Shown: piece after piece, positions 1 to 64,000 of the stretch
How the letters are laid out: the number at the start of each line of letters is the position of its first letter
Position numbering within the stretch: the first letter of the stretch is position 1
Source of the DNA: Bacteroidota bacterium
GTDB lineage: Bacteria > Bacteroidota > Bacteroidia > 2-12-FULL-35-15
Length of the DNA stretch: 64,000 nucleotides
Assembly (NCBI GenBank): GCA_947449315.1
Contig: CANFRC010000003.1
Location: forward strand, 124,001 to 188,000
Direction: 5' to 3'
Notes under the pieces: model-generated
The model's input: the letters and a program-made list of their open reading frames with translations, nothing else
The model's database searches: none
Told to the model about the DNA's origin: nothing
Made by a program: the position numbers and the translations under genes

Positions 1-425
1 CTTGAAAAATAAGTAGACGTATTTATTCCTCCTGCAGTATCAACACGTCCGATTGTTCCATTCCAAGTACCTGTTGATGCGACTGTAAGCGTCCCAATAG
101 GAGCATCATACCCTGCACAAACCACATATCTGTAATCGGCTGATAACGTAACATCTCCTTCTGATACTGCTGTACCGCTTTGTGTTAATATTCGATTGGA
201 TCCAGAAACTGCAGTTGGCAAATCCACCGTCTTCAACCCTACTGTAGAACCACCTGTTGTCATTTCAACCAATGTTACCTTCCATGCAGCACTGGTGACA
301 GCTGCCGATCCATCTCCTACTCGACAGACAATTAAATTCCCCGCATTAAAATTTTGAGCAGATGCATTTAGAGTAAAAAAAAACGACAATAGCAGAATGA
401 AGAATTCACTTTTAAAGGTTTTCAT
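1..425 (-). CDS. Secreted protein with repeat-type N-terminus, partial (3' end outside window)
   Basis: An open frame reads leftward from an ATG at 425 and runs off the window start with no stop, giving 141 codons. The first 23 residues are a signal peptide (Lys-rich start, Leu/Phe core, ending Ala-Ser-Ala before Gln24). The mature part begins with an Asn-Phe-Asn-Ala-Gly-Asn-Leu-Ile-Val motif, then Val-Gly-Asp-Gly and Ser-Gly-Ser-Asn-Arg, which resembles the repeat-rich secreted proteins of Bacteroidota that often end in a T9SS sorting domain. The C-terminus is not visible, so export route and function are inference. A perfect -7 promoter element and two hairpins lie upstream. Confidence 0.75.
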   Translation of the reverse strand, partial: MKTFKSEFFILLLSFFFTLNASAQNFNAGNLIVCRVGDGSAAVTSAAWKVTLVEMTTGGSTVGLKTVDLPTAVSGSNRILTQSGTAVSEGDVTLSADYRYVVCAGYDAPIGTLTVASTGTWNGTIGRVDTAGGINTSTYFS

Positions 426-559: not shown

Positions 560-567
560 CAAATGTA
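560..567 (-). promoter_or_regulatory. Bacteroidota -7 element for the partial secreted gene
   Basis: CAAATGTA on the plus strand reads TACATTTG on the minus strand, a full match to TAnnTTTG. It would start a leader of about 130 nt. No convincing -33 TTTG is seen. Confidence 0.45.
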
Positions 568-620
568 GGAGGGGTATATTATTGTAATTTTATTCTGATT
601 TTAATAAATCATCATATTAA

Positions 621-2739: not shown

Positions 2740-3126
2740 TCAATGATAACAAGTCAACCAATTTATTTCCTCATTATTCATAACACTTCTTATAAGACTT
2801 AACAACAATTTAGGGCGAACTGGCTTTACAACAATATGTTCCGTGTTTGAAGTCTTCATGTACGCTTCGAGTTCAATCAGACTTAAAAGGGTGACATCTT
2901 TCAAGGTTTCGATTTTTATTTTTTTACTGAATGCATGAAAATCAAGCTCAGAGTCAACTGTATTCACGACAATTAAATTCGGGATTGTTTTTTCTGCAAG
3001 CATAAAGGCATCATTCAAATTAACCGATCTTAAAACTTTAAACCCATTCTCTGCCAAATTTTCTCCTATAAAATCTAACTCTCTTGCATCATCAAACACC
3101 AACAATACACTTTCCATGTGTTTCAT
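2740..3126 (-). CDS. Stand-alone pseudo-receiver protein
   Basis: A 128-aa protein with the fold pattern of a response-regulator receiver: acidic pair Asp12-Asp13, a hydrophobic strand at 51-54, Ser82 at the switch Ser/Thr position and Lys101-Pro102. The phospho-acceptor position is Asn55 in place of Asp, so it should not be phosphorylated in the usual way. There is no output domain. ATG codons at 3126 and 3117 are both possible; the second starts closer to the conserved core. It has its own promoter element and lies downstream of a canonical receiver gene on the same strand. Likely role by analogy: protein-protein regulator or sink in a two-component circuit. Confidence 0.7.
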   Translation of the reverse strand: MKHMESVLLVFDDARELDFIGENLAENGFKVLRSVNLNDAFMLAEKTIPNLIVVNTVDSELDFHAFSKKIKIETLKDVTLLSLIELEAYMKTSNTEHIVVKPVRPKLLLSLIRSVMNNEEINWLTCYH

Positions 3127-3224: not shown

Positions 3225-3608
3225 CTAAGCCGCTTTTTCTTCAATCAATTTATTGACTATGGAGAGCAGATACTCAAATTTAATAGGCTTAGAAGCATAT
3301 TGGTCGGCGCCAGATGACATCGCATATAAAACTTTGTAATCATCACTAACGGCAGTCAAAAAAATAAAAGGGGTATGATGTAGGTCACTAATTTTTCTTA
3401 TCTCTTTACACATTTCTATCCCATCCATTTCAGGCATGAGAATATCAGAAACAATGACCTCGGGAAGATCTGTTTTAGCAGAAGTAACACCCTCAATTCC
3501 ATTATTTGCAGTTATTACAATGAACCCTTTTTTTCTGAAATTATAAGAAAGAAATTCCAATATATCTGGCTCATCATCAACAATTAATATTTTTCTGTCA
3601 GGATTCAT
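3225..3608 (-). CDS. Single-domain response regulator (receiver only)
   Basis: A 127-aa CheY-like receiver with all key residues: Asp11 and Asp12 in the acidic pocket, phospho-acceptor Asp55, Thr85 and Lys107-Pro108. There is no DNA-binding domain. By eye about half of its residues match the receiver of the PhoB-like regulator at 9867-10553, including the shared Asp-Ile-Leu-Glu-Phe-Leu-Ser-Tyr-Asn stretch, so the two look like paralogues. Family knowledge suggests such proteins act as phosphate sinks or connectors. It lies downstream of the T9SS cargo gene, but the terminator at 3698-3727 and its own -7 element suggest separate transcription. Confidence 0.88.
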   Translation of the reverse strand: MNPDRKILIVDDEPDILEFLSYNFRKKGFIVITANNGIEGVTSAKTDLPEVIVSDILMPEMDGIEMCKEIRKISDLHHTPFIFLTAVSDDYKVLYAMSSGADQYASKPIKFEYLLSIVNKLIEEKAA

Positions 3609-3749: not shown

Positions 3750-6731
3750 TTATTTTGAAACTACCAACTTCAATGTTTTATTAGCTGTTTTTGATTGCAT
3801 TGAAATAAAATAAATTCCTGCATTTAATTTACTTGCATCAATTTGAAGAGAATTTTGTCCTGCACTCATTTGAGCATCGAATAAATTCATCACCATCTTA
3901 CCAGTAATGTCATAAACATTAACAATTACTTTAGTAGCAATTTCTAAATTAACATTAATTGTTGCAAAATCAGTTACAGGATTTGGATATACATTAAATC
4001 CATTTACTGAAGAAGCTTCTGCTATTCCAACAGTCATGTTTACAACAAAAGAAATTGTATCAGTACATGTTCCATTCGAAGCTATCAAAGTTACAGTATA
4101 CGCACCATTTGTTGCATATGTGTGAACTGGAGCTGAAGCAGAAGAACTTGATAAATCTCCAAAGTCCCAAGTGTATGTAGTAGCACCAGTTGAAGTATTA
4201 GCAAAAGTAACTGCATAACCAGAAGTTGATGCTACAGCACCTGCAGCAGTTGGAACAGGATTAACTGTTACTAGCGTATTAGCTGAAGTACCTACTCCGC
4301 TACAAGCAACAGCATTTGTTGTTATAACATTATAACTTCCTGAAGCTGAAACGGTAATAGTTTGTGTTGTTGCTCCACCTGGACTCCATAAATAAGTATC
4401 GGAAGTTGAAGCAGTTAATGTAGTAGTTTGACCTGCGCAAATTGATGTTCCACCGGAAACTGCAATTGTAGGCAATGGAGCGCTACTTACATTTACTGAT
4501 TGAGCTGTTGAAGTTGCCGAACAACCATTAATATCACTAATAGTAACTGAATAATTTCCAGTGCTTCCTACAACAATACTTGAAGTTGTTGCGCCACCTG
4601 GACTCCATAAATAGGTCGAACCAGTTGAAGAACTAAGTGTAACGTTACTACCTGTGCAAAAAGAAGTTGAGCCACTAGCTGAAATAATTGGTGCTGCAGG
4701 CAGAGGGTTAACAGTTACCAATGTTGGAACCGAAGTTGCTTGACATCCATTTGCATCAGTTACAGTAACATTATAGTTACCTCCTACTGTTGCAATAATA
4801 GAAGATGCTGTTGAACCATTTGACCACATGTAAGAAGTTGCACCAGAAGTTGCAGTTAAAGCAACTGAGTTACCAATACAAAAAGCAAGTGGACCACTAG
4901 CAGATATTGCAGCAACAGGAGCTGTGAAATGAGTAACTGTTATTGGTGAAGAAGTTGCACTGCATCCACCAGAAGTAACAACAACAGTATAAACTCCTGC
5001 TGTTAAAGCATTGTATGATGAACTAACAGCACCAGAAATATCAACACCAGCTAACTGCCACTGATAAGAATATCCTGCAGAAATGTTCGCATTTAAAGTA
5101 ACTGCGGCTGTAGGACAAACTGTTGTAGATCCTGCTGGAGTAATTGTAGCTAATGGAGCAGCTGTTCCGCTATAGTCAGTATTTTGACAATCAAAATTAC
5201 ACCATCCTAACATCCAATTATCGGAAACTGATCCCGTATTACCAAATGCACCAACGTATGCTGTATGATCAAAAAATGAACCTTGTAATTTGCTGCTTGT
5301 AAAACTTGGTTTTACGGCTGGAGCTCCAACAGGGAAAACAACAGGAGAAGAACTCAATGGTATTAAGTTCGGATTCGTTAAACTGAAAGGATTCGTTAAA
5401 CGAACGCTCGTTTGTTCTGTTGCATAATTAACATTTTTGTAAGAAGAAACCAATTCAAAATTATATGGTCCTGAAAATGGGTTAAAAGGAAGAGTTGTCG
5501 TTGTATCACCTTCAACTGATGTTGGTGTTAAACTTCTAGCACCGTCTATTACGAACATCATCTCCTTTTTAGTTGGAGTCAAAGTTGTTGGAATACCACA
5601 AATAATAGTATTTCTGATTTGACCAACAGAGTCAGGACCAGAACCTAGTATATTGTAGTTTCTTGTTGTAGAACCATAAGAAGCAGATGACTGATCGAAT
5701 AAAATACCAGCTGGCCATCCAGCAACAATTGAGTTCATTAAACTTAAAGCTGCTCCTCTGCGAATATGAACAGCAGAAACATATTGAGGGTCAAAAGAAG
5801 TTGATGTTGGACTAACAAGTGGTCCTATCAAAGTAACATTAGAACAAACAGGACGTGTTAAACCTGTAGTATCAGTAAGACCTCCTGGAGAACCTGATGT
5901 TCCATATGTTCCAGATTGATAACTATCTACTTCGAAACCTTTTGAACCAGACTGATCTGCAGCAAAAGGATCTCTAATGCCTACCATATACTGATTTTTT
6001 CCTTTATACCCACAATCCATATCAAAATCATCATCCCAACCAGCATACGCTACTAAATATTTTGAATTTACAGTACCACCAAACCATTCAAATGAGTCAT
6101 CGCCGCTAAAAGAAACTTGGATATGATCTAATTGAGTTCCATCACCAACTGAATACAATGACAATCCATTCACCTCGTTATTCGGTGAAAATGCAACACC
6201 ACCAAATTCAATACGAACGTATGACAAAACACCTGAATTATCATGAGCATTAGGTGTTGCGCCACCACCATACAATGAGCGTGGTCCACCTTCAACTTGG
6301 TGAACACCATAGTTGGTTGGACTAGTATACCAATTGCAATATGCTTTACCACAAAGAATAACTCCACCCCAATCACCATAGCTTCTAGAACCTGCAGGTT
6401 GATTTGATGTAAAAACAATTGGTTGAGTTACTGTACCTTGTGCTATTAATTTCGCACCTCTTTCTACTATCAAGGTCCCTTTTGTTGCTAAGTCACCTTT
6501 AATAACTGTACCTGGATCGATAGTTAAAGTGTGACCATTTGTTACATATATCCAACCTTTAATTAAGTATTGGTTACAAGCAGTCCAGTGTGTATTTGTA
6601 CTAATACTATCATTCACTGATGCATCGTATGTGATCACAGTTGCCTGTGCATTCGCATGCAAAATACCCGTCAAGCTCAAGATAAACAAGGCCAGGATTT
6701 TTTTTAGAGTAAGTAAATTTTCTTTTTTCAT
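3750..6731 (-). CDS. Large T9SS type A cargo: beta-helix-like domain, Ig-like repeats, PKD and sorting domain
   Basis: A 993-aa secreted protein. The signal peptide ends Ala-Asn-Ala before Gln29. Residues about 30-520 form an uncharacterised domain with parallel-beta-helix-like strands (Leu-Thr-Ile-Asp-Pro-Gly-Thr-Val-Ile-Lys-Gly; Trp-Gly-Gly-Val-Ile-Leu; Glu-Gly-Gly-Pro-Arg-Ser-Leu-Tyr-Gly-Gly) and an Asp-rich segment near Trp-Asp-Asp-Asp-Phe-Asp-Met-Asp. Four Ig-like repeats of about 70 aa follow (about 530-815), then a PKD domain (Trp-Asp-Phe-Gly-Asp) and the type A T9SS C-terminal domain from about 910 (Val-Tyr-Pro-Asn-Pro, Gly-Ile-Tyr-Phe). It lies directly downstream of a TonB receptor, so it is likely an outer-surface partner of that receptor, for example a binding protein or enzyme. 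No catalytic motif is recognised. A strong terminator follows. Confidence 0.88.
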   Translation of the reverse strand: MKKENLLTLKKILALFILSLTGILHANAQATVITYDASVNDSISTNTHWTACNQYLIKGWIYVTNGHTLTIDPGTVIKGDLATKGTLIVERGAKLIAQGTVTQPIVFTSNQPAGSRSYGDWGGVILCGKAYCNWYTSPTNYGVHQVEGGPRSLYGGGATPNAHDNSGVLSYVRIEFGGVAFSPNNEVNGLSLYSVGDGTQLDHIQVSFSGDDSFEWFGGTVNSKYLVAYAGWDDDFDMDCGYKGKNQYMVGIRDPFAADQSGSKGFEVDSYQSGTYGTSGSPGGLTDTTGLTRPVCSNVTLIGPLVSPTSTSFDPQYVSAVHIRRGAALSLMNSIVAGWPAGILFDQSSASYGSTTRNYNILGSGPDSVGQIRNTIICGIPTTLTPTKKEMMFVIDGARSLTPTSVEGDTTTTLPFNPFSGPYNFELVSSYKNVNYATEQTSVRLTNPFSLTNPNLIPLSSSPVVFPVGAPAVKPSFTSSKLQGSFFDHTAYVGAFGNTGSVSDNWMLGWCNFDCQNTDYSGTAAPLATITPAGSTTVCPTAAVTLNANISAGYSYQWQLAGVDISGAVSSSYNALTAGVYTVVVTSGGCSATSSPITVTHFTAPVAAISASGPLAFCIGNSVALTATSGATSYMWSNGSTASSIIATVGGNYNVTVTDANGCQATSVPTLVTVNPLPAAPIISASGSTSFCTGSNVTLSSSTGSTYLWSPGGATTSSIVVGSTGNYSVTISDINGCSATSTAQSVNVSSAPLPTIAVSGGTSICAGQTTTLTASTSDTYLWSPGGATTQTITVSASGSYNVITTNAVACSGVGTSANTLVTVNPVPTAAGAVASTSGYAVTFANTSTGATTYTWDFGDLSSSSASAPVHTYATNGAYTVTLIASNGTCTDTISFVVNMTVGIAEASSVNGFNVYPNPVTDFATINVNLEIATKVIVNVYDITGKMVMNLFDAQMSAGQNSLQIDASKLNAGIYFISMQSKTANKTLKLVVSK
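4366..4616 (-). repeat. Near-identical DNA segments inside the Ig-like repeats
   Basis: The 32-bp segments 4366-4397 and 4585-4616 differ at only two positions and encode the same Leu-Trp-Ser-Pro-Gly-Gly-Ala-Thr-Thr strand. This suggests recent duplication or gene conversion between neighbouring repeats. Confidence 0.7.
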
Positions 6732-6794: not shown

Positions 6795-6802
6795 CAAAAA
6801 TA
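6795..6802 (-). promoter_or_regulatory. Candidate -7 element for the type A cargo gene
   Basis: CAAAAATA reads TATTTTTG on the minus strand, a full TAnnTTTG match, about 65 bp before the ATG at 6731. It suggests the cargo gene can be transcribed separately from the TonB receptor gene upstream. Confidence 0.4.
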
Positions 6803-6835
6803 TATTTGAGATGTTATCCTAAGTATGCAATAGTT

Positions 6836-6861
6836 TTATCTATCTGTTAATTATGTGTTAA
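6836..6861 (-). promoter_or_regulatory. TTAA repeats at 11-bp spacing upstream of the cargo gene
   Basis: TTAA occurs at 6847 and 6858, exactly 11 bp apart, with a weaker TTAT in phase at 6836. The spacing equals that of the repeats between the TonB receptor and PhoB-like genes, suggesting the same regulator. It sits about 35 bp upstream of the candidate -7 element. Confidence 0.35.
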
Positions 6862-6871
6862 AAAATTGATT

Positions 6872-9682
6872 TTACAATTTGAATTTTATTCCGAAAGAAA
6901 AGTATCTGCCTTTCTTATAACTTAACATTTCCTTGTCGGTTCCATCATTTTTAAATTTCCCATCTCTATTTGTATCCTGAACAAGAACAATTGGTTGATT
7001 AAATATGTCTTGAATTGAAAAACTTAGCCAAAAATATTTGGTGATTTTTTGGGAAATATTCAGATCGAGTGTGTTACGAGAAATTTCCCCAATATTTGGA
7101 GTAGCAGTAGTTCCAAGGGAAGCAATCCTAGAACCAAACACATTATATAAAACACTCATTTGTGTAAAAGATGAATCATTCTGATAATAAATTCCTCCAT
7201 TAACAACATAAGGAGATTGGCCTTGTAAAGGACTATTCCTCTGAGCATCAACATTGTCAGGCATTGTCATTTCACTTTGAATAAAAGATGCATTTGCAAC
7301 AATATTAAAATCTGAAAAGGCATGTTTGAATTTAAACTTTTGGTCTATAAAACCTAAATTTTTTCTACCATCTAATTCTATTCCTCTGGAGTAAGCCGAT
7401 TCTGCATTAATAAAAGTATAAGCTCTGCTGTCGGAACCTCCTGAAAGGACTACTTGTTGGATAGGATTAATAAATTGTTTATAAAACAAACCTATTTGAA
7501 TAAAATCACTTCGTGTAGGGTAGTATTCATATCGTAAATCATAATTAAATACTTCTGCAACTTTTAAAATTGTTCCTTGTGGAAAAAGTACATTTGGAAA
7601 AAGGGAACCATAAGTACCTGCGCTTAAATCAAAATCATAAAAATAAAAAGGTGACCATTCGCGGAATTCAGGTCTATTTAAAGTTTTACCACATGCAAAT
7701 CGAACAATTGAAGTATCCGGCTTAATGTTATAGGAAATGTTTAAGCTAGGAAGAATAAATCTGGTTGTCACACTCGGGCTAATACTATCGGTACTAATAT
7801 GGCCTTGTAAAGACATCACATTGTACTCATATCTAGCGCCTCCGACAACATTAAAATGTTTACCTATAGGCATATTTAAGGTCAGATAACTTGCAATAAG
7901 TTTATTTTGGCCAGAATATTTATCAGAAGCAGAAGTGCTTTCGTCAATTCTAAATCCACCTGGAACACCAACATTCGCGTCAGCAAAAATTTGATCAATC
8001 GGAAGATGTTTTAAGTTAAAAGACAATAAATTATTGCCAATGGTATACCCCAAAACGCGAGCTGCAAAAGATCTATTCTTATATTCAATATAATTACCAA
8101 CATTGAAGTCGAAATTATAATTTTTTATTTTTATTTTTTGCTTGAAGTTATGGCTAAAACTATATACTTTTTCATTCATACCTGAAAAGAATCGACCACC
8201 AATATTGGGATCGACAGAACCGTTTGGAACCGATGCATAATACAAAGAATCGGGATCCATCTGTTGTTTCGTATATCTTATTTTCCTAAGATCAGGTGTA
8301 TCCTTTTTTGTCATCGAATACCCGCCCGTCCAAGTGTATTCTGTCCCCCCTTTTTTTGAAGAATGCTTACCAGTCAATTGTATCAAAGTGTTTCTCTTTT
8401 TTTCATATCCTTCCTGATAAGCACGTAAATTAGGGGCTGTTGTCAACAGACTATTTCTAACAACTACTTGCTGACTACCCATCTGATTAAACATGGAACG
8501 AAAATCGATCCGATGTCTTGCACTTACAAATGAAAGATTTTCCAAAAAGCCTGCCTTAACAGAGTTAATACTTTGCACATCCGAATAATTATAGACCTTT
8601 GTAATGCTATCCCAATCTTGACGTTGAATATTATAAGTTGTATTTACGTTGCTGTAATTAATATTACTTACACTTCCTAATTTAAATTTTTTAAACTTAA
8701 TCGGAACCCCATAGGTTATATTAAAACGTTCATCAGGATTACTTTTTGTCGTATTGACTGCCCAAGTATTTTTAAATGATTTGGTCTCTGAACTATTATC
8801 TACATCATTTTTAGAAATATAAGGATGCAATGCTGCGGTATTCAAATCGTAATAATTACTATACCCTAACACATTTTTTTTAATCCCGTCATTTGAATTA
8901 AAATCTTTGAACGTACTGCCATCGCGATAAGAGAGCTGATAATTGAATATTAATTCTTCTTTTTCAGGAACGGACTTTGTATAAATTTTAACCATACCAC
9001 CAGCAAAATCACCAGGCAATTCGGGAGAAGGTGTTTTATAAATCAAAACCCTATCTATTAATCCTGCTGGTAGTATATCGAAAGAAAAAGCCTTTTTATC
9101 TGTTTCTGAACTAGGAGCTCCAGCATCATTCATCCAAACACTGTTATAACGATCACTAAGTCCACGAACCATTATAAACCTGTTTTCAATTATTGTAACC
9201 CCAGGAATACGTTTAACTACTTCGGCTGCATCCCTGTCCTGACTTTTTGCAATCTGTGCAGCAGATGTTCCACTAACAATATTATTGCTCTTCTTCATTT
9301 CAAAAACTACGGCAGATTCGGTGTTTGTTACTTTTGCCTCTACAACCTCAACACCTGCTATTTCATTTAGATTTGGCTCAATTGAAACGTTAATAATTGT
9401 GGGTTTCCCTTCTTCCAATTTAACTTTTTTAACCATTAACGTTTTATAGGAAATGAATGAAAATATTAAATCATAATTACCTGCAGCAAGATTTTTTATC
9501 TCGTAATTACCATCAAAATCAGAAAAAGAGCCAGTTGTAGTTCCGTCAATTTTAACTATTGCACCGGGAAGAGCTTCACCAGTTTGTTTATCAATAATCT
9601 TCCCTTTTATGCTTGAATTTTGAGAAAACACTATCTTTGTAAATAGAACAACTACTAGTGTTGTAAATAATTTTAATTTCAT
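6872..9682 (-). CDS. TonB-dependent outer-membrane receptor with carboxypeptidase-regulatory-like N-domain
   Basis: A 936-aa receptor. Signal peptide 1-20 is followed by Gln21. A CarboxypepD_reg-like domain (about 24-108) has Gly-Lys-Ile-Ile-Asp and Leu-Pro-Gly-Ala. The plug (about 125-245) contains Arg-Ile-Pro-Gly-Val-Thr-Ile-Ile, Val-Arg-Gly-Leu-Ser-Asp-Arg-Tyr-Asn and Pro-Gly-Asp-Phe-Ala-Gly-Gly. A 22-strand-type barrel of about 690 aa follows. It is not a SusC, since no SusD lies beside it. The downstream neighbour on the same strand is the type A cargo gene, 140 bp away; divergently upstream lies the PhoB-like regulator. The role is active uptake of an unknown substrate across the outer membrane. 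PhoB-like boxes in its promoter suggest phosphate-related control, by inference. Confidence 0.9.
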   Translation of the reverse strand: MKLKLFTTLVVVLFTKIVFSQNSSIKGKIIDKQTGEALPGAIVKIDGTTTGSFSDFDGNYEIKNLAAGNYDLIFSFISYKTLMVKKVKLEEGKPTIINVSIEPNLNEIAGVEVVEAKVTNTESAVVFEMKKSNNIVSGTSAAQIAKSQDRDAAEVVKRIPGVTIIENRFIMVRGLSDRYNSVWMNDAGAPSSETDKKAFSFDILPAGLIDRVLIYKTPSPELPGDFAGGMVKIYTKSVPEKEELIFNYQLSYRDGSTFKDFNSNDGIKKNVLGYSNYYDLNTAALHPYISKNDVDNSSETKSFKNTWAVNTTKSNPDERFNITYGVPIKFKKFKLGSVSNINYSNVNTTYNIQRQDWDSITKVYNYSDVQSINSVKAGFLENLSFVSARHRIDFRSMFNQMGSQQVVVRNSLLTTAPNLRAYQEGYEKKRNTLIQLTGKHSSKKGGTEYTWTGGYSMTKKDTPDLRKIRYTKQQMDPDSLYYASVPNGSVDPNIGGRFFSGMNEKVYSFSHNFKQKIKIKNYNFDFNVGNYIEYKNRSFAARVLGYTIGNNLLSFNLKHLPIDQIFADANVGVPGGFRIDESTSASDKYSGQNKLIASYLTLNMPIGKHFNVVGGARYEYNVMSLQGHISTDSISPSVTTRFILPSLNISYNIKPDTSIVRFACGKTLNRPEFREWSPFYFYDFDLSAGTYGSLFPNVLFPQGTILKVAEVFNYDLRYEYYPTRSDFIQIGLFYKQFINPIQQVVLSGGSDSRAYTFINAESAYSRGIELDGRKNLGFIDQKFKFKHAFSDFNIVANASFIQSEMTMPDNVDAQRNSPLQGQSPYVVNGGIYYQNDSSFTQMSVLYNVFGSRIASLGTTATPNIGEISRNTLDLNISQKITKYFWLSFSIQDIFNQPIVLVQDTNRDGKFKNDGTDKEMLSYKKGRYFSFGIKFKL

Positions 9683-9725
9683 TTTTTTCTTGATTTATTT
9701 TGGAAACAAAGTAATTGCGATAAAG

Positions 9726-9762
9726 TCAATATAGGGTTAAACAAAAATTAAAATAGTGTTAA
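9726..9762 (-). promoter_or_regulatory. Putative PhoB-type operator of the TonB receptor gene
   Basis: TTAA lies at 9737, 9748 and 9759, with TCAA in phase at 9726: four elements on an exact 11-bp period. OmpR/PhoB regulators bind 11-bp direct repeats. Toward the gene, a near-consensus -7 element (9707-9714, TTACTTTG on the minus strand, one mismatch) lies about 12 bp beyond the box, matching activation from a site that replaces the -33 element. Confidence 0.5.
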
Positions 9763-9786
9763 TTAAAGCGCCTAAATACAAACATT

Positions 9787-9819
9787 TGTTAATGTTAAAT
9801 TAATCTGAATTTAACTTTG
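9787..9819 (+). promoter_or_regulatory. Putative PhoB-type operator and -7 element of the response-regulator gene
   Basis: TTAA lies at 9789, 9800 and 9811, again exactly 11 bp apart; the third merges with a perfect -7 element TAACTTTG (9812-9819). This predicts autoregulation and a leader of about 40 nt before the ATG at 9867. TTAA is common in AT-rich DNA, so the phasing, not the word, is the evidence. Confidence 0.5.
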
Positions 9820-9866
9820 AAATGAAGGTTAATAACGTACTTTACTGAGAATTAAAAAATGAAAAA

Positions 9867-10553
9867 ATGAATAACAACGAGTATAAGATTTTATTGGTAG
9901 ATGATGAGGAGGATATTTTAGAATTTCTCAGCTACAATCTTAAGAAAGAAGGTTACAATGTATTCACTGCTAATAATGGGAAAGAAGCAGTAATAGTTGC
10001 TAAAAAAGAAAACCCTCATCTTATAATATTAGACGTAATGATGCCAGATATGGATGGCATTGAAACCTGCCGTGAAATCAGAGAAATACCGGGCTTAAAG
10101 GATGTGATGATTGCTTTTTTAACAGCACGCAGTGAAGATTACTCACAAATTGCCGGATTTGATGTTGGCGCAGATGATTATATCAACAAGCCCATAAAAC
10201 CAAGAGTTTTAATCAGTCGAATCAAAGCACTTCTAAGAAGAGGGGCGACCTCCGATGCCAGTAAGACAGACAAAGTTGACATGGGTGGAATAAAGATTGA
10301 CCGCGAGCGTTATGTTGTTGTGAAAGATGGAAAAGAAATTAGCCTTCCAAAAAAAGAGTTTGAACTACTTGCATTGCTTGCCTCTAAACCAGGAAAGGTT
10401 TTTACACGCGATGTTATTTTAGATAGTGTATGGGGTGGCGATGTTGTTGTTGGAGATAGAACAATTGATGTACATGTTCGAAAATTAAGAGAAAAACTAG
10501 GCGAAGACTTTATTAAAACAGTTAAAGGAATTGGTTATAAGTTTGAATTTTAA
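9867..10553 (+). CDS. PhoB/OmpR-family response regulator
   Basis: A 228-aa regulator. The receiver (about 5-125) has Asp12-Asp13, phospho-acceptor Asp56, Thr86 and Lys108. A winged-helix DNA-binding domain (about 133-226) has Lys-Glu-Phe-Glu-Leu-Leu, Thr-Ile-Asp-Val-His-Val-Arg-Lys-Leu-Arg and Gly-Ile-Gly-Tyr-Lys-Phe. The cognate kinase gene follows 86 bp downstream. Family knowledge: phosphorylated dimers bind 11-bp direct repeats, which are present on both sides of the divergent intergenic region. It resembles PhoB of Bacteroidota, but no pst or phoU gene is visible here to confirm a phosphate role. Confidence 0.92.
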   Translation: MNNNEYKILLVDDEEDILEFLSYNLKKEGYNVFTANNGKEAVIVAKKENPHLIILDVMMPDMDGIETCREIREIPGLKDVMIAFLTARSEDYSQIAGFDVGADDYINKPIKPRVLISRIKALLRRGATSDASKTDKVDMGGIKIDRERYVVVKDGKEISLPKKEFELLALLASKPGKVFTRDVILDSVWGGDVVVGDRTIDVHVRKLREKLGEDFIKTVKGIGYKFEF

Positions 10554-10639: not shown

Positions 10640-11677
10640 ATGAAATCTATTTCGCCAAAACTATTATTAATACTTATTGCTGTAGTGCTTGCTGCATTAA
10701 TTGTAGCAGGCATTTTTGTTTATTTACCACAAGAGTTTTTCAATTGGAGAGCTGCTATTTTTATTTTTTTACTATCCATTATTCCATCCTCTGTAGTTAT
10801 TGTTTGTATCCATTTTTCTGTTCTTAAAAAAATGGAGCGCCTACTTGATACAGTAAAAAATTATCGTGCAAACGGTGACAACCCATCACAACTTACAACG
10901 AACTCTGCTAACAATATTGATAACCTGAAACTAGAAATTGTTGCTTGGGCTGATGATCGAAAAAACGAGATTGAACGATTAAAGAAGTTGGAAGTATATC
11001 GTAAAGAATTTTTAGGAAATGTTTCTCATGAATTAAAAACACCTATTTTCAATATCCAAGGATATGTTTTGACACTATTAGATGGAGGTCTTGAAGATCC
11101 TTCTATCAATAGAAATTATTTAGAGCGTGCAGAAAAAAGTGTTGACAGAATGATTACCATCATTGATGATCTGGAAGCGATCTCACAATTAGAGACTGGG
11201 GAATTACAAATAGAGCCTGAACGATTTGACATTTTAGCCTTGGCGAAAGATGTGGCAGAAGCACAAGAGATGAAAGCTACTGCAAAAGGGATTATCTTAA
11301 CATTACCGGAAGACAACAAACCAGTTTATATATTTGCCGACCGTTTCCGCGTTCGACAGGTTCTTGTAAACCTAATCGTAAATTCGGTCAAATATGGCAA
11401 AGAATACGGCGAAACAAAGATCCGATTTTATGACATTGGTGAAAATATTATGGTAGAAATTGCTGATAACGGAATTGGTATTGCGAAAGAACATCTGCCT
11501 CGTTTATTCGAACGTTTTTACCGCGTTGACAAAAGTAGGTCACGTGAACAAGGAGGGACGGGCTTAGGATTAGCTATCGTGAAACATATCATTGAAGCTC
11601 ACAATCAAACGATCAATGTAATGAGCACGGAAAGTGCAGGAACTGTTTTTTCGTTTACTTTGAAGAAATCTACTTAA
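10640..11677 (+). CDS. PhoR-like membrane sensor histidine kinase
   Basis: A 345-aa kinase. Two membrane helices (about 8-29 and 38-62) bracket only a short periplasmic turn, so it has no sizeable extracellular sensor. A linker helix leads to HisKA with Ser129-His130-Glu-Leu-Lys-Thr-Pro, His130 being the phosphorylation site. The ATPase part has an N-box (Asn-Leu-Ile-Val-Asn-Ser), Asp-Asn-Gly-Ile-Gly-Ile and Gly-Gly-Thr-Gly-Leu-Gly-Leu-Ala. The small sensor region fits PhoR-type kinases, which often sense through partner membrane proteins. It is transcribed with the preceding regulator and is the likely phosphodonor for the receiver-only protein at 3225-3608. Confidence 0.9.
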   Translation: MKSISPKLLLILIAVVLAALIVAGIFVYLPQEFFNWRAAIFIFLLSIIPSSVVIVCIHFSVLKKMERLLDTVKNYRANGDNPSQLTTNSANNIDNLKLEIVAWADDRKNEIERLKKLEVYRKEFLGNVSHELKTPIFNIQGYVLTLLDGGLEDPSINRNYLERAEKSVDRMITIIDDLEAISQLETGELQIEPERFDILALAKDVAEAQEMKATAKGIILTLPEDNKPVYIFADRFRVRQVLVNLIVNSVKYGKEYGETKIRFYDIGENIMVEIADNGIGIAKEHLPRLFERFYRVDKSRSREQGGTGLGLAIVKHIIEAHNQTINVMSTESAGTVFSFTLKKST

Positions 11678-13072: not shown

Positions 13073-14134
13073 ATGAGTCAGCCAACAATCGCGGGGATCC
13101 AGCAAGTAGGAATAGGAATCCCAAATGTACATGCAGCTTTCAAATGGTATCGTCAGAACTTTGGAATGGATATTCCAATTTTTGAAGAAGCTGCAGAAGC
13201 AAATCTGATGTTGCCTTATACAGGAGGCAAACCACATCAGCGACATGCTATCTTAGCTATCAACATGAAAGGTGGCGGAGGTTTTGAGATCTGGCAATAT
13301 ACTAGCCGCGTTCCCGAACCTTGTTCTTTTGAAATACAAGTCGGAGATCTTGGTTTTTATTGTGCGCGAATGAAAACGAGCGACGTAAAGGGCTCTTATG
13401 AGTTTTTGAAATCTAAAAATGCTACTATCGTAAGCGAATTAACTAAAGATGCAGGAGGAAATGATACATTTTATTTACGCGACCCCTGGAAAAATTTATT
13501 TCAAATCGTAAAAAGTGATTCCTGGTTTGGCTCAGGAGCGCAGCTGACAGGTGGGCCAGCAGGAATGATGATTGGAGTGAGCGATATTGAAAGATCTATA
13601 AAGTTTTATTCTGATATTTTAGGGTATGACACGGTTGCATACGACAAAGAAGGTGTTTTTGAAGATCTGAAAAATTTACCAAGCGGAACAACAAAAGTAC
13701 GTAGGGTTTTATTAAAACACAGCAAGCCAAGAGTGGGTGCATTTTCTAATTTACTAGGAACAAGTGAAATTGAATTGATCAAAACACTGGAACGCACTCC
13801 ACGTAAAATATTTGAAAATCGATTCTGGGGAGATCAAGGTTTCATTCATTTATGCTTTGACATAACCAATCAAAAAGCGATGAAAGAATTGTGCGCAGAA
13901 AAAGGCCATCCGTATACCGTGGATAGTGGAGAAAAATTTGATATGGGAGAAGCCGCTGGCCACTTCAGTTATATTGAGGATCCGGATGGAGCTTTGATAG
14001 AATTTGTTGAAACAAAAAAAATACCTATCATGAAAAAAATAGGTTGGTACCTCGATCTCAGAAAACGAGATGCTTCAAAACCATTGCCTAATTGGATGTT
14101 AAAAGCTTTAAAATTCAACAGGGTTAAAGATTAA
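13073..14134 (+). CDS. Two-domain VOC (glyoxalase/dioxygenase-fold) protein
   Basis: A 353-aa protein with two vicinal-oxygen-chelate domains, about 5-145 (Val-Gly-Ile-Gly-Ile-Pro-Asn-Val, Trp-Tyr-Arg-Gln-Asn-Phe-Gly) and about 160-310 (Val-Ser-Asp-Ile-Glu-Arg-Ser-Ile-Lys-Phe-Tyr; Phe-Ile-His-Leu-Cys-Phe-Asp; Asp-Pro-Asp-Gly-Ala-Leu-Ile-Glu-Phe). The His and Glu of the second domain fit metal ligands. A C-terminal extension of about 40 aa is basic. Lyase, dioxygenase and isomerase activities all occur in this fold, so the reaction is open. It lies 21 bp before the radical SAM gene, so co-transcription is likely. Confidence 0.85.
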   Translation: MSQPTIAGIQQVGIGIPNVHAAFKWYRQNFGMDIPIFEEAAEANLMLPYTGGKPHQRHAILAINMKGGGGFEIWQYTSRVPEPCSFEIQVGDLGFYCARMKTSDVKGSYEFLKSKNATIVSELTKDAGGNDTFYLRDPWKNLFQIVKSDSWFGSGAQLTGGPAGMMIGVSDIERSIKFYSDILGYDTVAYDKEGVFEDLKNLPSGTTKVRRVLLKHSKPRVGAFSNLLGTSEIELIKTLERTPRKIFENRFWGDQGFIHLCFDITNQKAMKELCAEKGHPYTVDSGEKFDMGEAAGHFSYIEDPDGALIEFVETKKIPIMKKIGWYLDLRKRDASKPLPNWMLKALKFNRVKD

Positions 14135-14155
14135 AAAAAACTTTTACAACCTATA

Positions 14156-15808
14156 ATGCAAGTACTACTAACCACTTTAAATGCCAAATACATTCACATG
14201 AACCTTGCAATTCGTTTGTTATACGAATTGAACAAAGAACATAAAGGGTTAGAGTGGAAAGAGTTTACAATCAAAGAAGACAAAGATGAAATTGCTGAAT
14301 ATTGCAGCAAGTTCGAAATTGTTGCTTTCAGCTGTTATATATGGAATATAACACCAACACTTGAAGTTGCAAATAAGATCAAAGCGCTTAATCCTGAATG
14401 TAAAATTCTGCTCGGTGGACCTGAAGTTAGTTATGATTACAAGGAGACAATTGCTCTTCAACAGGTCGATTACATTATTGTTGGAGAAGGTGAAACGCCT
14501 TTCACTGAATTTCTAAATTCATTTCCTTCTCTTGAAAACGTCGCTGGTTTAGTTTGGAAAAAAGAGGGTGTTGTGACAGAAAACAAAGCTGCTCCGATGT
14601 TTGAACTGAAAAACTTTTCAAACATCAACCCATATATCAACGACAAATCGGAAGAGTTATACAACAAAGTTTGTTACATTGAAACCTCCAGAGGCTGTCC
14701 CTACAAATGTGAATTTTGCTTAGCCAGTCTCGATAACAAGGTTCGTTATTTACCAGATGAAAATATAAAATCCAATTTATTACATCTCATGAACTATGGA
14801 AGAACGATCAAATTTCTTGACCGAACTTTCAATATCAAGAAGGACTTCACAATTGATATTTTCAAATTTATTCTGAAACATCATCAACCAGGAAATGTTT
14901 TTCAATTTGAAATCACAGCAGACATTGTTCATCCCGAAATAATAAAATTCATTAATGAAAATGTACCGAAAGGGTTGTTCCGTTTTGAAATAGGGATTCA
15001 AACTGTGAATCAAAAAGCAAATTTAGAAGTCAGTAGGAAACAAAACTTTGAAAAGACAAAAGGTATTATCCAACAGTTATCAGATAAAATCGAAATGCAC
15101 CTCGATTTGATTGTTGGTTTGCCCCTCGATCAATGGGAAGACATTAAATTCAGTTTCGAAGAAGTATTTAAATTATTTGCACCTGAATTACAACTAGGAT
15201 TTTTAAAATTTTTAAAAGGCACACCCGTCCGTGAAAAATACGAGCAGCATGGTTTTAAATTCGACCCTAATCCTCCCTATCAAATTATAGAAAGCAATTA
15301 TTTATCTGCTGAGCAATTACATAAAATCACTTTGGTGGAACATTCATTAGAAGTGTATTGGAACAAAAAAAGAGCACCCAACACACTAAAATACATTACT
15401 ACCAATTATTCTATTTTTGATTTCTTATTGGGACTGGGATTGCATTTCGAATCCAAAAGAGACCTCCACAAGTTTTCTTTAAATGATATTTTTGAAATTA
15501 TTACGGAATATGCTTCTACGAGCTACAAAGAAGATATTATTATACAACAACTCATTGCGATAGATTATTATTTACACCACAAAGTAAAACCACAAACTTT
15601 ATTTATTGAAGAAGTAGAAAGACAAATAAAGAATAAAATTATTGAAGAGAAGCGATTGAATCATCACAAGTACCGATATATAATTCTTCCTCTGCCGTTC
15701 AATTTTAATGCATTTGAAAAAGAAAACACGATTGAAAAAATAGATTCGAACATTATAATTCAATATGATGGGGTAAATAAAGCAGAAGTAATTCATGATC
15801 TGATTTAA
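14156..15808 (+). CDS. B12-binding radical SAM protein (DUF4080 type)
   Basis: A 550-aa protein. The N-terminal cobalamin-binding-like Rossmann domain (about 1-150) has Leu-Leu-Gly-Gly-Pro-Glu-Val and Val-Gly-Glu-Gly-Glu. The radical SAM core holds Cys181-x3-Cys185-x2-Cys188 for the 4Fe-4S cluster. A C-terminal DUF4080-like region follows. Family knowledge: such enzymes use SAM radical chemistry, often methylation or rearrangement; the substrate of this subgroup is not established. It sits 20 bp before the diiron ferritin-like gene, suggesting a joint pathway. Confidence 0.88.
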   Translation: MQVLLTTLNAKYIHMNLAIRLLYELNKEHKGLEWKEFTIKEDKDEIAEYCSKFEIVAFSCYIWNITPTLEVANKIKALNPECKILLGGPEVSYDYKETIALQQVDYIIVGEGETPFTEFLNSFPSLENVAGLVWKKEGVVTENKAAPMFELKNFSNINPYINDKSEELYNKVCYIETSRGCPYKCEFCLASLDNKVRYLPDENIKSNLLHLMNYGRTIKFLDRTFNIKKDFTIDIFKFILKHHQPGNVFQFEITADIVHPEIIKFINENVPKGLFRFEIGIQTVNQKANLEVSRKQNFEKTKGIIQQLSDKIEMHLDLIVGLPLDQWEDIKFSFEEVFKLFAPELQLGFLKFLKGTPVREKYEQHGFKFDPNPPYQIIESNYLSAEQLHKITLVEHSLEVYWNKKRAPNTLKYITTNYSIFDFLLGLGLHFESKRDLHKFSLNDIFEIITEYASTSYKEDIIIQQLIAIDYYLHHKVKPQTLFIEEVERQIKNKIIEEKRLNHHKYRYIILPLPFNFNAFEKENTIEKIDSNIIIQYDGVNKAEVIHDLI

Positions 15809-61019: not shown

Positions 61020-64000
61020 ATGAAAAAAATAATTCTATTCATCCTCGTATTGGCAATAAATAATTTTTCTGTAGCGCAGGAAACTTTCCCAGTAAATGGC
61101 ACTTCTAATAAGAATCACACGATCTATGCATTTATCAATGCAAAAATTGTGGTGAACCCTGATGAAACGATTGAAAACGGAACTATGTTAATTCAGGATG
61201 GACTAATAAGCGTTATAGGTACTAAAATAGCGCTACCAAAAGGGGCTGTTATTTTCGATTTAAAAGGAAAATCAATCTACCCATCCTTCATAGACGCTTA
61301 TACAAGCTATGGTATGCCTGAACCAAAAAGAAATTCTGGCGGACCATTTCCTCAAATTGAAAGCAATACAAAAGGAGCTTACGGATGGAATCAGGCGATC
61401 AAACCTGAGACCGAAGCCAATAAAATTTTCACAACAGACGCCAAAACTGCTGATGAAATGCGCAAAATGGGATTTGGAGCAGTGTTAACATTCCAAAAAG
61501 ATGGGATTGTGAGAGGAAGCGGTTCCGTTGTATCCTTAGCCGATGGCAAAGAAAACCAGTTAATGATTCATGATAAAGCTGCAGCATTGTATTCGTTTGA
61601 CAAAGGCACATCCACACAGGATTATCCATCATCTTTAATGGGTGCGATTGCTTTGCTTCGCCAAACTTATTTAGATGCGGATTGGTACAAAACCGATAAG
61701 ACAAAAAAAGAGTACAACATTTCATTAGACGCTTTCAACAATTTACAAACCCTTCCACAACTATTTGAAACCACAGATAAATTAAACGTTTTACGTGCCA
61801 ATAAGATTGCTGATGAGTTCAAAATAAAATACATAATAAAGGGTTCCGGAAATGAATACCAGCGACTCGATGATATTAAAGCAGCGAATTGCAAATTGAT
61901 CATTCCTTTAAACTTTCCGGCTGCATTTGATGTAGAAGATGCCTACGACGCTTCTAACATTTCTTTAACCGAATTGAAACATTGGGAAATGGCGCCTTTA
62001 AATCCTTCAGCACTAGAAAAATACCTTATTCCTTTTGCAATAACAACATCTGACCTGAAGGATAAAAAAGATTTCTGGAAAAACTTGCGCAAAGCCATCA
62101 CTTACGGATTAACGGAAAAACAAGCGTTAAGATCGTTAACTACCATTCCTGCCGAGATGCTCAATTTAAGTGATAAAATAGGAAGTTTGAAAAGCGGAAT
62201 GATCGCTAACTTTATCATCACTTCGGGAAATCTATTTGACGAAAAAACAATCATTTATGAAAATTGGGTTCAAGGAATCAACTATAAATTAAATGATTAC
62301 AACGCTGTTGATGTGAGAGGAAATTATGATTTTTCGTTTGGTCACAACCGCAATTTGTTTCAACTAAAAATTGAAGGTGAACTTGACAAGTTAAAAGGCA
62401 CAGTAATTATTGACACCGCTAAAACACCTGTTAATGTTATAGTGTCAGGAAATTCTATTTCAATTTCTTTCAACCCGAAAGATATTACAGGAACGATCCG
62501 ATTAAGTGGAACTATTTCTGACGGACCGATTCGAATGAATGGTAAAGGACAAACTCCTGACGGCGACTGGATTGACTGGAGCGCTAATTATACAAGTGCT
62601 TTAACTGCATTACCTAAAAAAGACCAAGTAAAAGAATTACCGAAATTCGGACAAGTTATTTATCCATTTTGTGCCTATGGAAAACCATTAGATAACCATG
62701 AGGGCTTCAGTAAAATTGTGCAAGACTTTAAAAACCGCGATGAAGTAATCGTTATAAAACATGTGACCATTTGGACAAATGAAGAAGCAGGAATTTTAAA
62801 AAACCAAGATGTTTACATTGCGAATGGCCGTATTGCAAGGATAGCAGATGATATCAACGCAACAAAATTAGAATTTGCTAAAGTCATAGATGGAACAGGG
62901 AAACACTTAACAGCCGGAATCATTGACGAACATTCACATATTGCTCTTATCAGCGTGAATGAGGGAACCCAAGCCTCAAGTGCTGAAGTAAGAATGGGCG
63001 ATGTCATTAATTCGGAAGACATTAATATTTACCGTCAGCTTTCAGGAGGAGTCACCACATCGCAATTATTACATGGCTCGGCAAACCCTATTGGAGGTCA
63101 ATCGGCAATTGTAAAACTTCGTTGGGGAAAAAATCCGGAAGAAATGAAATTTGCAAAAGCAGATGGTTTCATAAAGTTTGCATTGGGAGAAAATGTTAAA
63201 CAGAGCAATTGGGGCGATGCAAACACAATTCGTTTTCCCCAAACCAGAATGGGAGTTGAACAAGTGTATTATGATTTTTTTACACGTGCAAAAGAATACG
63301 ATGCAAAACAAAAAGCGTTTGCTAGTCTAACCGAAAAAACAAAAGCAAATGCCGCACCATTCCGCAGAGATTTGGAATTAGAAGCAATTGCGGAGATCCT
63401 AAATAAAAAACGATTCATCACGTGCCACTCATATGTTCAATCTGAAATCAACATGTTGATGCATGTTGGAGATTCATTGGGATTTCAAGTAAATACATTT
63501 ACACATATTTTAGAAGGATATAAAGTAGCGGATAAAATGAAAGCGCGAGGCATAGGAGCTTCCACTTTCAGTGATTGGTGGGCATATAAAATGGAAGTAA
63601 AAGATGCCATTCCATACAATGCATCCATTTTAAATCAAATGGGAATTGTAACAGCAATCAATTCTGATGATGCAGAAATGGGAAGACGATTAAATCAGGA
63701 AGCTGCAAAATCGGTAAAATACGGAGGGATGAGCGAAGAAGATGCCTTGAAATTGGTCACACTAAATCCGGCGAAGCTATTACACATCGACAACAGAGTA
63801 GGAAGCATTAAAGTAGGAAAAGATGCTGATGTTGTTCTGTGGTCTGACAACCCTTTATCAATTTATGCGAAAGTGGAGAAAACAATTATTGATGGACATA
63901 TTTATTATGATAGGGAAGAAGACGCTAAACAACGACTTGATATTCAAAAAGAACGTGCAAGAATCATTCAAAAAATGCTGGATGAGAAAAAAGGTGGAGC
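61020..64000 (+). CDS. Secreted tandem amidohydrolase, partial (3' end outside window)
   Basis: The frame is open from the ATG at 61020 to the window end, 993 codons with no stop. Signal peptide 1-19 is followed by Gln20. Two amidohydrolase-like halves are seen. The first (about 30-430) has the sheet and C-terminal pattern (Gly-Ser-Leu-Lys-Ser-Gly-Met-Ile-Ala-Asn) but lacks metal ligands: the His-x-His place reads Ile-Asp-Ala-Tyr-Thr-Ser. The second (from about 570) is intact: Asp-Glu-His638-Ser-His640, later His in Cys-His-Ser-Tyr and Thr-His-Ile-Leu, Asn-Ser-Asp-Asp, and Gly-Lys-Asp-Ala-Asp-Val-Val-Leu. Substrate is unknown; an imidazolonepropionase- or prolidase-like exported hydrolase is possible. 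Confidence 0.88.
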   Translation, partial: MKKIILFILVLAINNFSVAQETFPVNGTSNKNHTIYAFINAKIVVNPDETIENGTMLIQDGLISVIGTKIALPKGAVIFDLKGKSIYPSFIDAYTSYGMPEPKRNSGGPFPQIESNTKGAYGWNQAIKPETEANKIFTTDAKTADEMRKMGFGAVLTFQKDGIVRGSGSVVSLADGKENQLMIHDKAAALYSFDKGTSTQDYPSSLMGAIALLRQTYLDADWYKTDKTKKEYNISLDAFNNLQTLPQLFETTDKLNVLRANKIADEFKIKYIIKGSGNEYQRLDDIKAANCKLIIPLNFPAAFDVEDAYDASNISLTELKHWEMAPLNPSALEKYLIPFAITTSDLKDKKDFWKNLRKAITYGLTEKQALRSLTTIPAEMLNLSDKIGSLKSGMIANFIITSGNLFDEKTIIYENWVQGINYKLNDYNAVDVRGNYDFSFGHNRNLFQLKIEGELDKLKGTVIIDTAKTPVNVIVSGNSISISFNPKDITGTIRLSGTISDGPIRMNGKGQTPDGDWIDWSANYTSALTALPKKDQVKELPKFGQVIYPFCAYGKPLDNHEGFSKIVQDFKNRDEVIVIKHVTIWTNEEAGILKNQDVYIANGRIARIADDINATKLEFAKVIDGTGKHLTAGIIDEHSHIALISVNEGTQASSAEVRMGDVINSEDINIYRQLSGGVTTSQLLHGSANPIGGQSAIVKLRWGKNPEEMKFAKADGFIKFALGENVKQSNWGDANTIRFPQTRMGVEQVYYDFFTRAKEYDAKQKAFASLTEKTKANAAPFRRDLELEAIAEILNKKRFITCHSYVQSEINMLMHVGDSLGFQVNTFTHILEGYKVADKMKARGIGASTFSDWWAYKMEVKDAIPYNASILNQMGIVTAINSDDAEMGRRLNQEAAKSVKYGGMSEEDALKLVTLNPAKLLHIDNRVGSIKVGKDADVVLWSDNPLSIYAKVEKTIIDGHIYYDREEDAKQRLDIQKERARIIQKMLDEKKGG

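Follow-up and report, generated by a model that had tools for sequence, protein, structure and literature searches.

Two TTAA tracts of 11-bp period between a TonB-dependent receptor gene and a phoB-like gene in a Bacteroidota bacterium: candidate back-to-back operators of the Pho-box type

The window analysed here, a stretch of 64,000 nucleotides from assembly GCA_947449315.1 (contig C3, positions 124001–188000; the genome comprises 2.61 Mb in 27 contigs), contains a divergent pair of genes. On the minus strand lies the gene for a TonB-dependent receptor of 936 amino acids (6872–9682), assigned by domain and family profile matches and by divergently placed orthologs in the genus. On the plus strand lies the gene for a PhoB-like response regulator of 228 amino acids (9867–10553) with a receiver domain (PF00072) and a winged helix (PF00486), adjoined by that for a PhoR/PnpS-like histidine kinase of 345 amino acids (10640–11677, plus strand), whose profile scores were below the curated cut-offs and in which a domain profile search found no PAS domain. 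The best NCBIfam matches of the regulator were PhoB models, with scores below the cut-offs (TIGR02154, 228.6 versus 296.2; NF053854, 221.4 versus 270); the protein is therefore called PhoB-like only. It is 36% identical to PhoB of Escherichia coli, and its receiver, OmpR-type DNA-binding domain and PhoB-type recognition helix are intact.

The gene for a T9SS-exported protein of 993 amino acids (3750–6731, minus strand) lies beyond the receptor gene, in a position which matches that of lipoprotein FII in the PhoBR locus of Flavobacterium johnsoniae (PMC8115612). Two stand-alone receiver proteins are encoded downstream of it on the minus strand; the one at 3225–3608 looks intact, and the one at 2740–3126 is degenerate at the phosphorylation residues. 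Together with this T9SS protein, the receptor and the PhoB-like/PhoR-like pair extend a phosphate cluster at C3:106–122 kb, which encodes PstA, PstC, two PstS proteins, a porin of the OprO/P type, T9SS-exported proteins, a glycosyltransferase and an LpxH/PlcP-like phosphoesterase, and also a carbonic anhydrase, whose gene is divergent from that of a second PhoB-like regulator. The latter (C3:112911–113594; 6911–7594 of the adjoining stretch L010) is found beside the pst genes and has no adjacent kinase. The genome contains six regulators of the OmpR family, two of which belong to the phosphate cluster.

The intergenic region between receptor and regulator (9683–9866) has a GC content of 21.7% and contains 10 TTAA words. 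Rechecking of the coordinates placed them as in the preliminary description: TTAA stands at 9737, 9748 and 9759 and again at 9789, 9800 and 9811, with TCAA in phase at 9726; further TTAA words, at 9763, 9795 and 9829, are out of phase. The half-site is more than plain TTAA, namely TTAAC[A/T], and it is directional, being read on the minus strand toward the receptor and on the plus strand toward the regulator. The candidate receptor-side operator (9719–9762, minus strand) consists of TTAACACTATT (9762–9752), TTAATTTTTGT (9751–9741) and TTAACCCTATA (9740–9730), followed by a degenerate fourth half-site, TTGACTTTATC (9729–9719), which corresponds to the TCAA. The candidate regulator-side operator (9789–9821, plus strand) reads TTAATGTTAAA TTAATCTGAAT TTAACTTTGAA.

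Such tracts are rare. When the intergenic region was shuffled 20,000 times with its dinucleotides preserved, at least one TTAA triplet at 11 bp occurred with a probability of 0.0039 and at least two with 0.00015; if any single period between 8 and 20 was admitted, the probability of at least two triplets was 0.0015. A search of the 64-kb window found no 11-bp TTAA triplet besides the two tracts. In the whole genome TTAA-N7-TTAA-N7-TTAA occurs at only 7 places, five of them within the approximately 28 kb of C3:106–134 kb which contain the pst genes and the receptor and regulator genes of the window. When both gaps were varied from 5 to 9, 61 places were obtained for the 25 gap combinations; the 24 others thus average 2.25 each, and this whole-genome search found no match with other gaps in C3:106–134 kb. 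Plain TTAA triplets are nevertheless too permissive for finding a regulon genome-wide, since those at C4:3609 and C3:74510 are low-scoring or without a well-placed promoter element.

A weight matrix was derived from 45 half-sites in the pstC promoters of 15 other genomes of the same genus, excluding the window genome; background statistics were based on about 350 kb of stretches and on whole-genome pattern searches. The pstC promoters of these 15 genomes contain TTAACATTAARTTAACAYAAGCATAACA, nearly letter for letter, with three half-sites at spacings of 11 and 22, and the resulting motif has the core [T/A]TAACA in three copies with an 11-bp period. Among all positions of the window, the receptor-side site (9730–9762, minus strand) ranked first with a score of 21.3. 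The regulator-side site at 9789 ranked third with 13.1, which barely exceeds the best unrelated site in the window (12.6 at 61954). Elsewhere in the genome, pstC scored 33.2, the porin 22.7 and pstS1 13.4. A box was called if the score was at least 8 within 150 bp upstream of a gene; among 294 genes, 10 of the 20 in the phosphate cluster had one, versus 4 of the 274 background genes (Fisher's test, p = 1.4e-10). Since the orthologs of pstC, one of these ten, had trained the matrix, nine others remain. The enrichment was found at period 11 only; with periods of 8–10 and 12–15, at most one cluster gene had a box. The presence of the same motif at phosphate genes bears out the earlier suggestion of an operator for a PhoB/OmpR regulator.

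The boxes are also conserved. Orthologs of the regulator were found in 32 of 36 genomes of the genus, and in 27 of the 28 with readable upstream regions three half-sites in phase occur 70–81 bp before the start codon. For the receptor box the comparison covered the 11 genomes whose receptor gene is divergent; the box is clear in all of them (scores 14.9–24.4), and one genome outside this set, G013, shows a weaker site in the corresponding position (11.6). The mean best score was 18.3 at period 11 and below 2 at each remaining period between 8 and 15. In the alignment of the 11 genomes the half-sites form conserved blocks, whereas the DNA between both operators varies. Of 31 more distant Bacteroidota loci, 16 passed the threshold at period 11, compared to 0–3 at other periods.

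Promoters of Bacteroidota are known to contain a -7 element with the consensus TAnnTTTG, and the boxes have a fixed position relative to it. For the receptor, an element with one mismatch had been proposed; it reads TTACTTTG (9707–9714, minus strand), is conserved and begins 26 bp after the start of half-site 3, a spacing present in 10 of the 11 receptor promoters. The perfect element which had been claimed for the regulator, TAACTTTG, exists literally at 9812–9819, but it shares positions with half-site 3 and lacks conservation, the letters after TTTAAC varying in relatives, so that it is probably a coincidence and was rejected. The conserved and likely -7 element of the regulator is GTACTTTA at 9837–9844 (plus strand), again 26 bp after the start of half-site 3; it reads GAACTTTA in most relatives. 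In 19 of the 28 regulator orthologs its core, ACTTTAC, is found at a distance of exactly 28 bp from half-site 3, which means that the octamer starts at 26. In the window genome a perfect TAnnTTTG is found at 26 bp for pstS1, the porin and the plcP-like gene, and at 37 bp for pstC and the T9SS gene; the latter distance (26 + 11) occurs in 14 of 16 pstC promoters.

The T9SS-exported protein of the window is preceded by a third candidate operator of this type, TTAACACATAA TTAACAGATAG ATAAAACTATT (6829–6861, minus strand; score 18.2, rank 2 in the window), with a perfect -7 element, TATTTTTG, at +37 (6795–6802). A further candidate at 560–604 (minus strand, score 9.0, perfect -7 element TACATTTG at +26) precedes a gene for a secreted protein (3–425, minus strand), which continues into L010. 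Also in L010, the genes for the glycosyltransferase and the PlcP/LpxH-like phosphoesterase lie side by side (13409–15316) behind a Pho-type box with a perfect TAnnTTTG at +26; by analogy to other bacteria (PMC4796936) this suggests phosphate-controlled remodelling of membrane lipids. Outside the cluster, the TTAA triplet at C3:74510 (8510–8535 of stretch L008) abuts the start of an operon which encodes a domain of the VTC polyphosphate polymerase type and DUF4956. This operon was rejected as a member of the regulon, because the box abuts the start codon and has no -7 element at the right distance; the triplet is probably due to chance. A genome-wide search for boxes with -7 elements gave 51 matches; 14 of these were in phase (22, 33 or 44), compared to about 5 expected, and those outside the cluster (C1, C2, C7, C8, C9, C12) were mostly chance-like. 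The inspected loci were inside genes or far from starts, or they preceded dxs or a DUF5916-like gene, with open reading frames judged by eye.

Four sequence traits of a Pho box are present at the locus: at least two direct repeats at 11 bp (three per tract, with a degenerate fourth on the receptor side), conservation upstream of orthologs, a constant distance to the core promoter (26 or 37 bp), and recurrence of the motif at pst and further phosphate genes in this genome.

Several known systems are similar. The PhoP box of Bacillus subtilis is composed of TTAACA-type repeats and has nearly the same half-site and period; phylum and promoter type differ, and homology of the operators is not claimed. 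The CtrA box of alphaproteobacteria, TTAA-N7-TTAA, is recognized by an OmpR-family regulator with a cell-cycle regulon; the TTAA spacing is identical, whereas regulon and phylum differ, the sites of the window fronting phosphate genes. Proteins of the PhoB family bind head to tail on direct repeats of 11 bp, and in E. coli such repeats are found upstream of pst and phoB, beside the core promoter (PMC4415409). The helix contacting DNA is of the same type (DRTxDVHxR) in E. coli PhoB and in the regulator described here. In contrast to the CTGTCAT-type half-site of the E. coli box and its sigma70 -10 element, TTAAC[A/T] occurs here, usually in three units, in front of a -7 element of the Bacteroidota type.

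Within Bacteroidota, PhoP of Riemerella anatipestifer showed a core of TTTAACA in DAP-seq, and in EMSA it bound to the promoter of its own gene as well as to a TonB-receptor promoter (PMC9603813); half-site core and both targets agree with the locus described here. Its reported role is in virulence and the Bat operon, and neither 11-bp repeats nor a spacing to a -7 element are described in the accessible text of that source; the likeness concerns motif and targets. The PhoBR locus (PUSIV, Fjoh_0541–0549) of F. johnsoniae has the same order of PhoR, PhoB, TonB receptor and a secreted lipoprotein of the beta-helix type, and upon depletion of Pi the log2 rise was 3.06 for PhoB, 8.02 for the TonB receptor, 9.91 for the FII lipoprotein and only 0.76 for PhoR; no operator is described in the accessible part of the report (PMC8115612). 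In contrast to that locus, as described there, the window genome has pst genes and T9SS proteins in the same cluster. In the literature searched, no definition of a Pho box for Bacteroidota was found, only the Riemerella motif. While the Pho box is a known kind of operator, the motif and spacing rule given here is sharper for this lineage than what that literature contained.

It appears very probable from the sequence data that the two TTAA tracts are separate, back-to-back operators of the Pho-box type for the PhoB-like regulator, serving activation of the receptor gene and autoregulation of phoB at low phosphate. The preliminary description had proposed an 11-bp direct-repeat operator of a PhoB/OmpR regulator with one tract per gene and had predicted autoregulation; this proposal agrees with the rarity, the conservation and the sharing with phosphate genes. 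The same motif, with the same geometry, is present at the pst, porin and T9SS-protein promoters, and from these features we infer binding, phosphorylation and direction of regulation at both operators. During phosphate starvation the PhoR-like kinase would most likely phosphorylate the PhoB-like regulator, which would bind head to tail on one face of the DNA, one monomer per 11-bp unit. With 26 bp between the start of half-site 3 and the -7 element, bound protein would cover the -33 region; with the last unit there, the regulator may act as a class II activator. The receptor-side operator would drive the TonB-dependent receptor and the regulator-side operator phoB, resulting in positive autoregulation. 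Activation at low phosphate is in part predicted by analogy from the induction of the syntenic genes in F. johnsoniae, a different genus (PMC8115612).

The boxes could be real and yet serve, chiefly or additionally, as binding sites of the second PhoB-like regulator. Its recognition helix, NRTIDVHIRKLREKL, is nearly identical to DRTIDVHVRKLREKL of the window protein, it is present in most of the genus, and its gene is itself preceded by a Pho-type box, with a -7-like element at +26. In all 16 readable orthologs of the genus, however, the second residue of its acidic pocket, Asp in the window protein, has been replaced by Thr, Ser, Asn or Ala; together with the missing adjacent kinase this makes a phosphorylation-dependent activator unlikely, and the box beside the kinase-linked regulator is kept in 27 of 28 genomes. 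This alternative is considered unlikely. A tentative and rather doubtful extension would be that two PhoB-family proteins read the Pho operators of the genus, a kinase-linked activator and a paralog with a broken pocket, the latter perhaps a built-in competitor or phosphate-independent partner which limits the starvation response.

Quite improbable is an assignment of the tracts to a non-phosphate regulator of the OmpR family (ArcA-like or CtrA-like), with phosphate linked by neighbourhood only. The genome has four other such regulators, and PhoB is not alone in using a motif of this shape, since 11-bp-spaced TTAA words also serve regulators of the ArcA and CtrA types. A likeness to ArcA has been noted for the flavobacterial PhoP motif (PMC9603813). 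Yet the motif, which was learned from pstC promoters, is also present at the receptor, at pstS and at the porin of the phosphate-selective type, and it is rare elsewhere. Chance phasing, conceivable in a region of 78% AT and in a genome with lone triplets outside the cluster at C3:74510 and C4:3609, is extremely improbable in view of the shuffling result (P = 0.00015) and is refuted by the alignment of 11 genomes, in which the repeats make up the conserved columns and the spacer separating the boxes is not conserved.

Two back-to-back operators of the PhoB-like regulator, as preferred here, would provide a testable Pho-box rule for this lineage of Bacteroidota: three half-sites of the [T/A]TAACA type, one per 11 bp, the third located 26 or 37 bp before TAnnTTTG. 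This rule would allow prediction of phosphate regulons in a phylum whose low-phosphate genes came from omics studies, and it would make a TonB receptor part of the phosphate response, together with T9SS-exported proteins of unassigned function.
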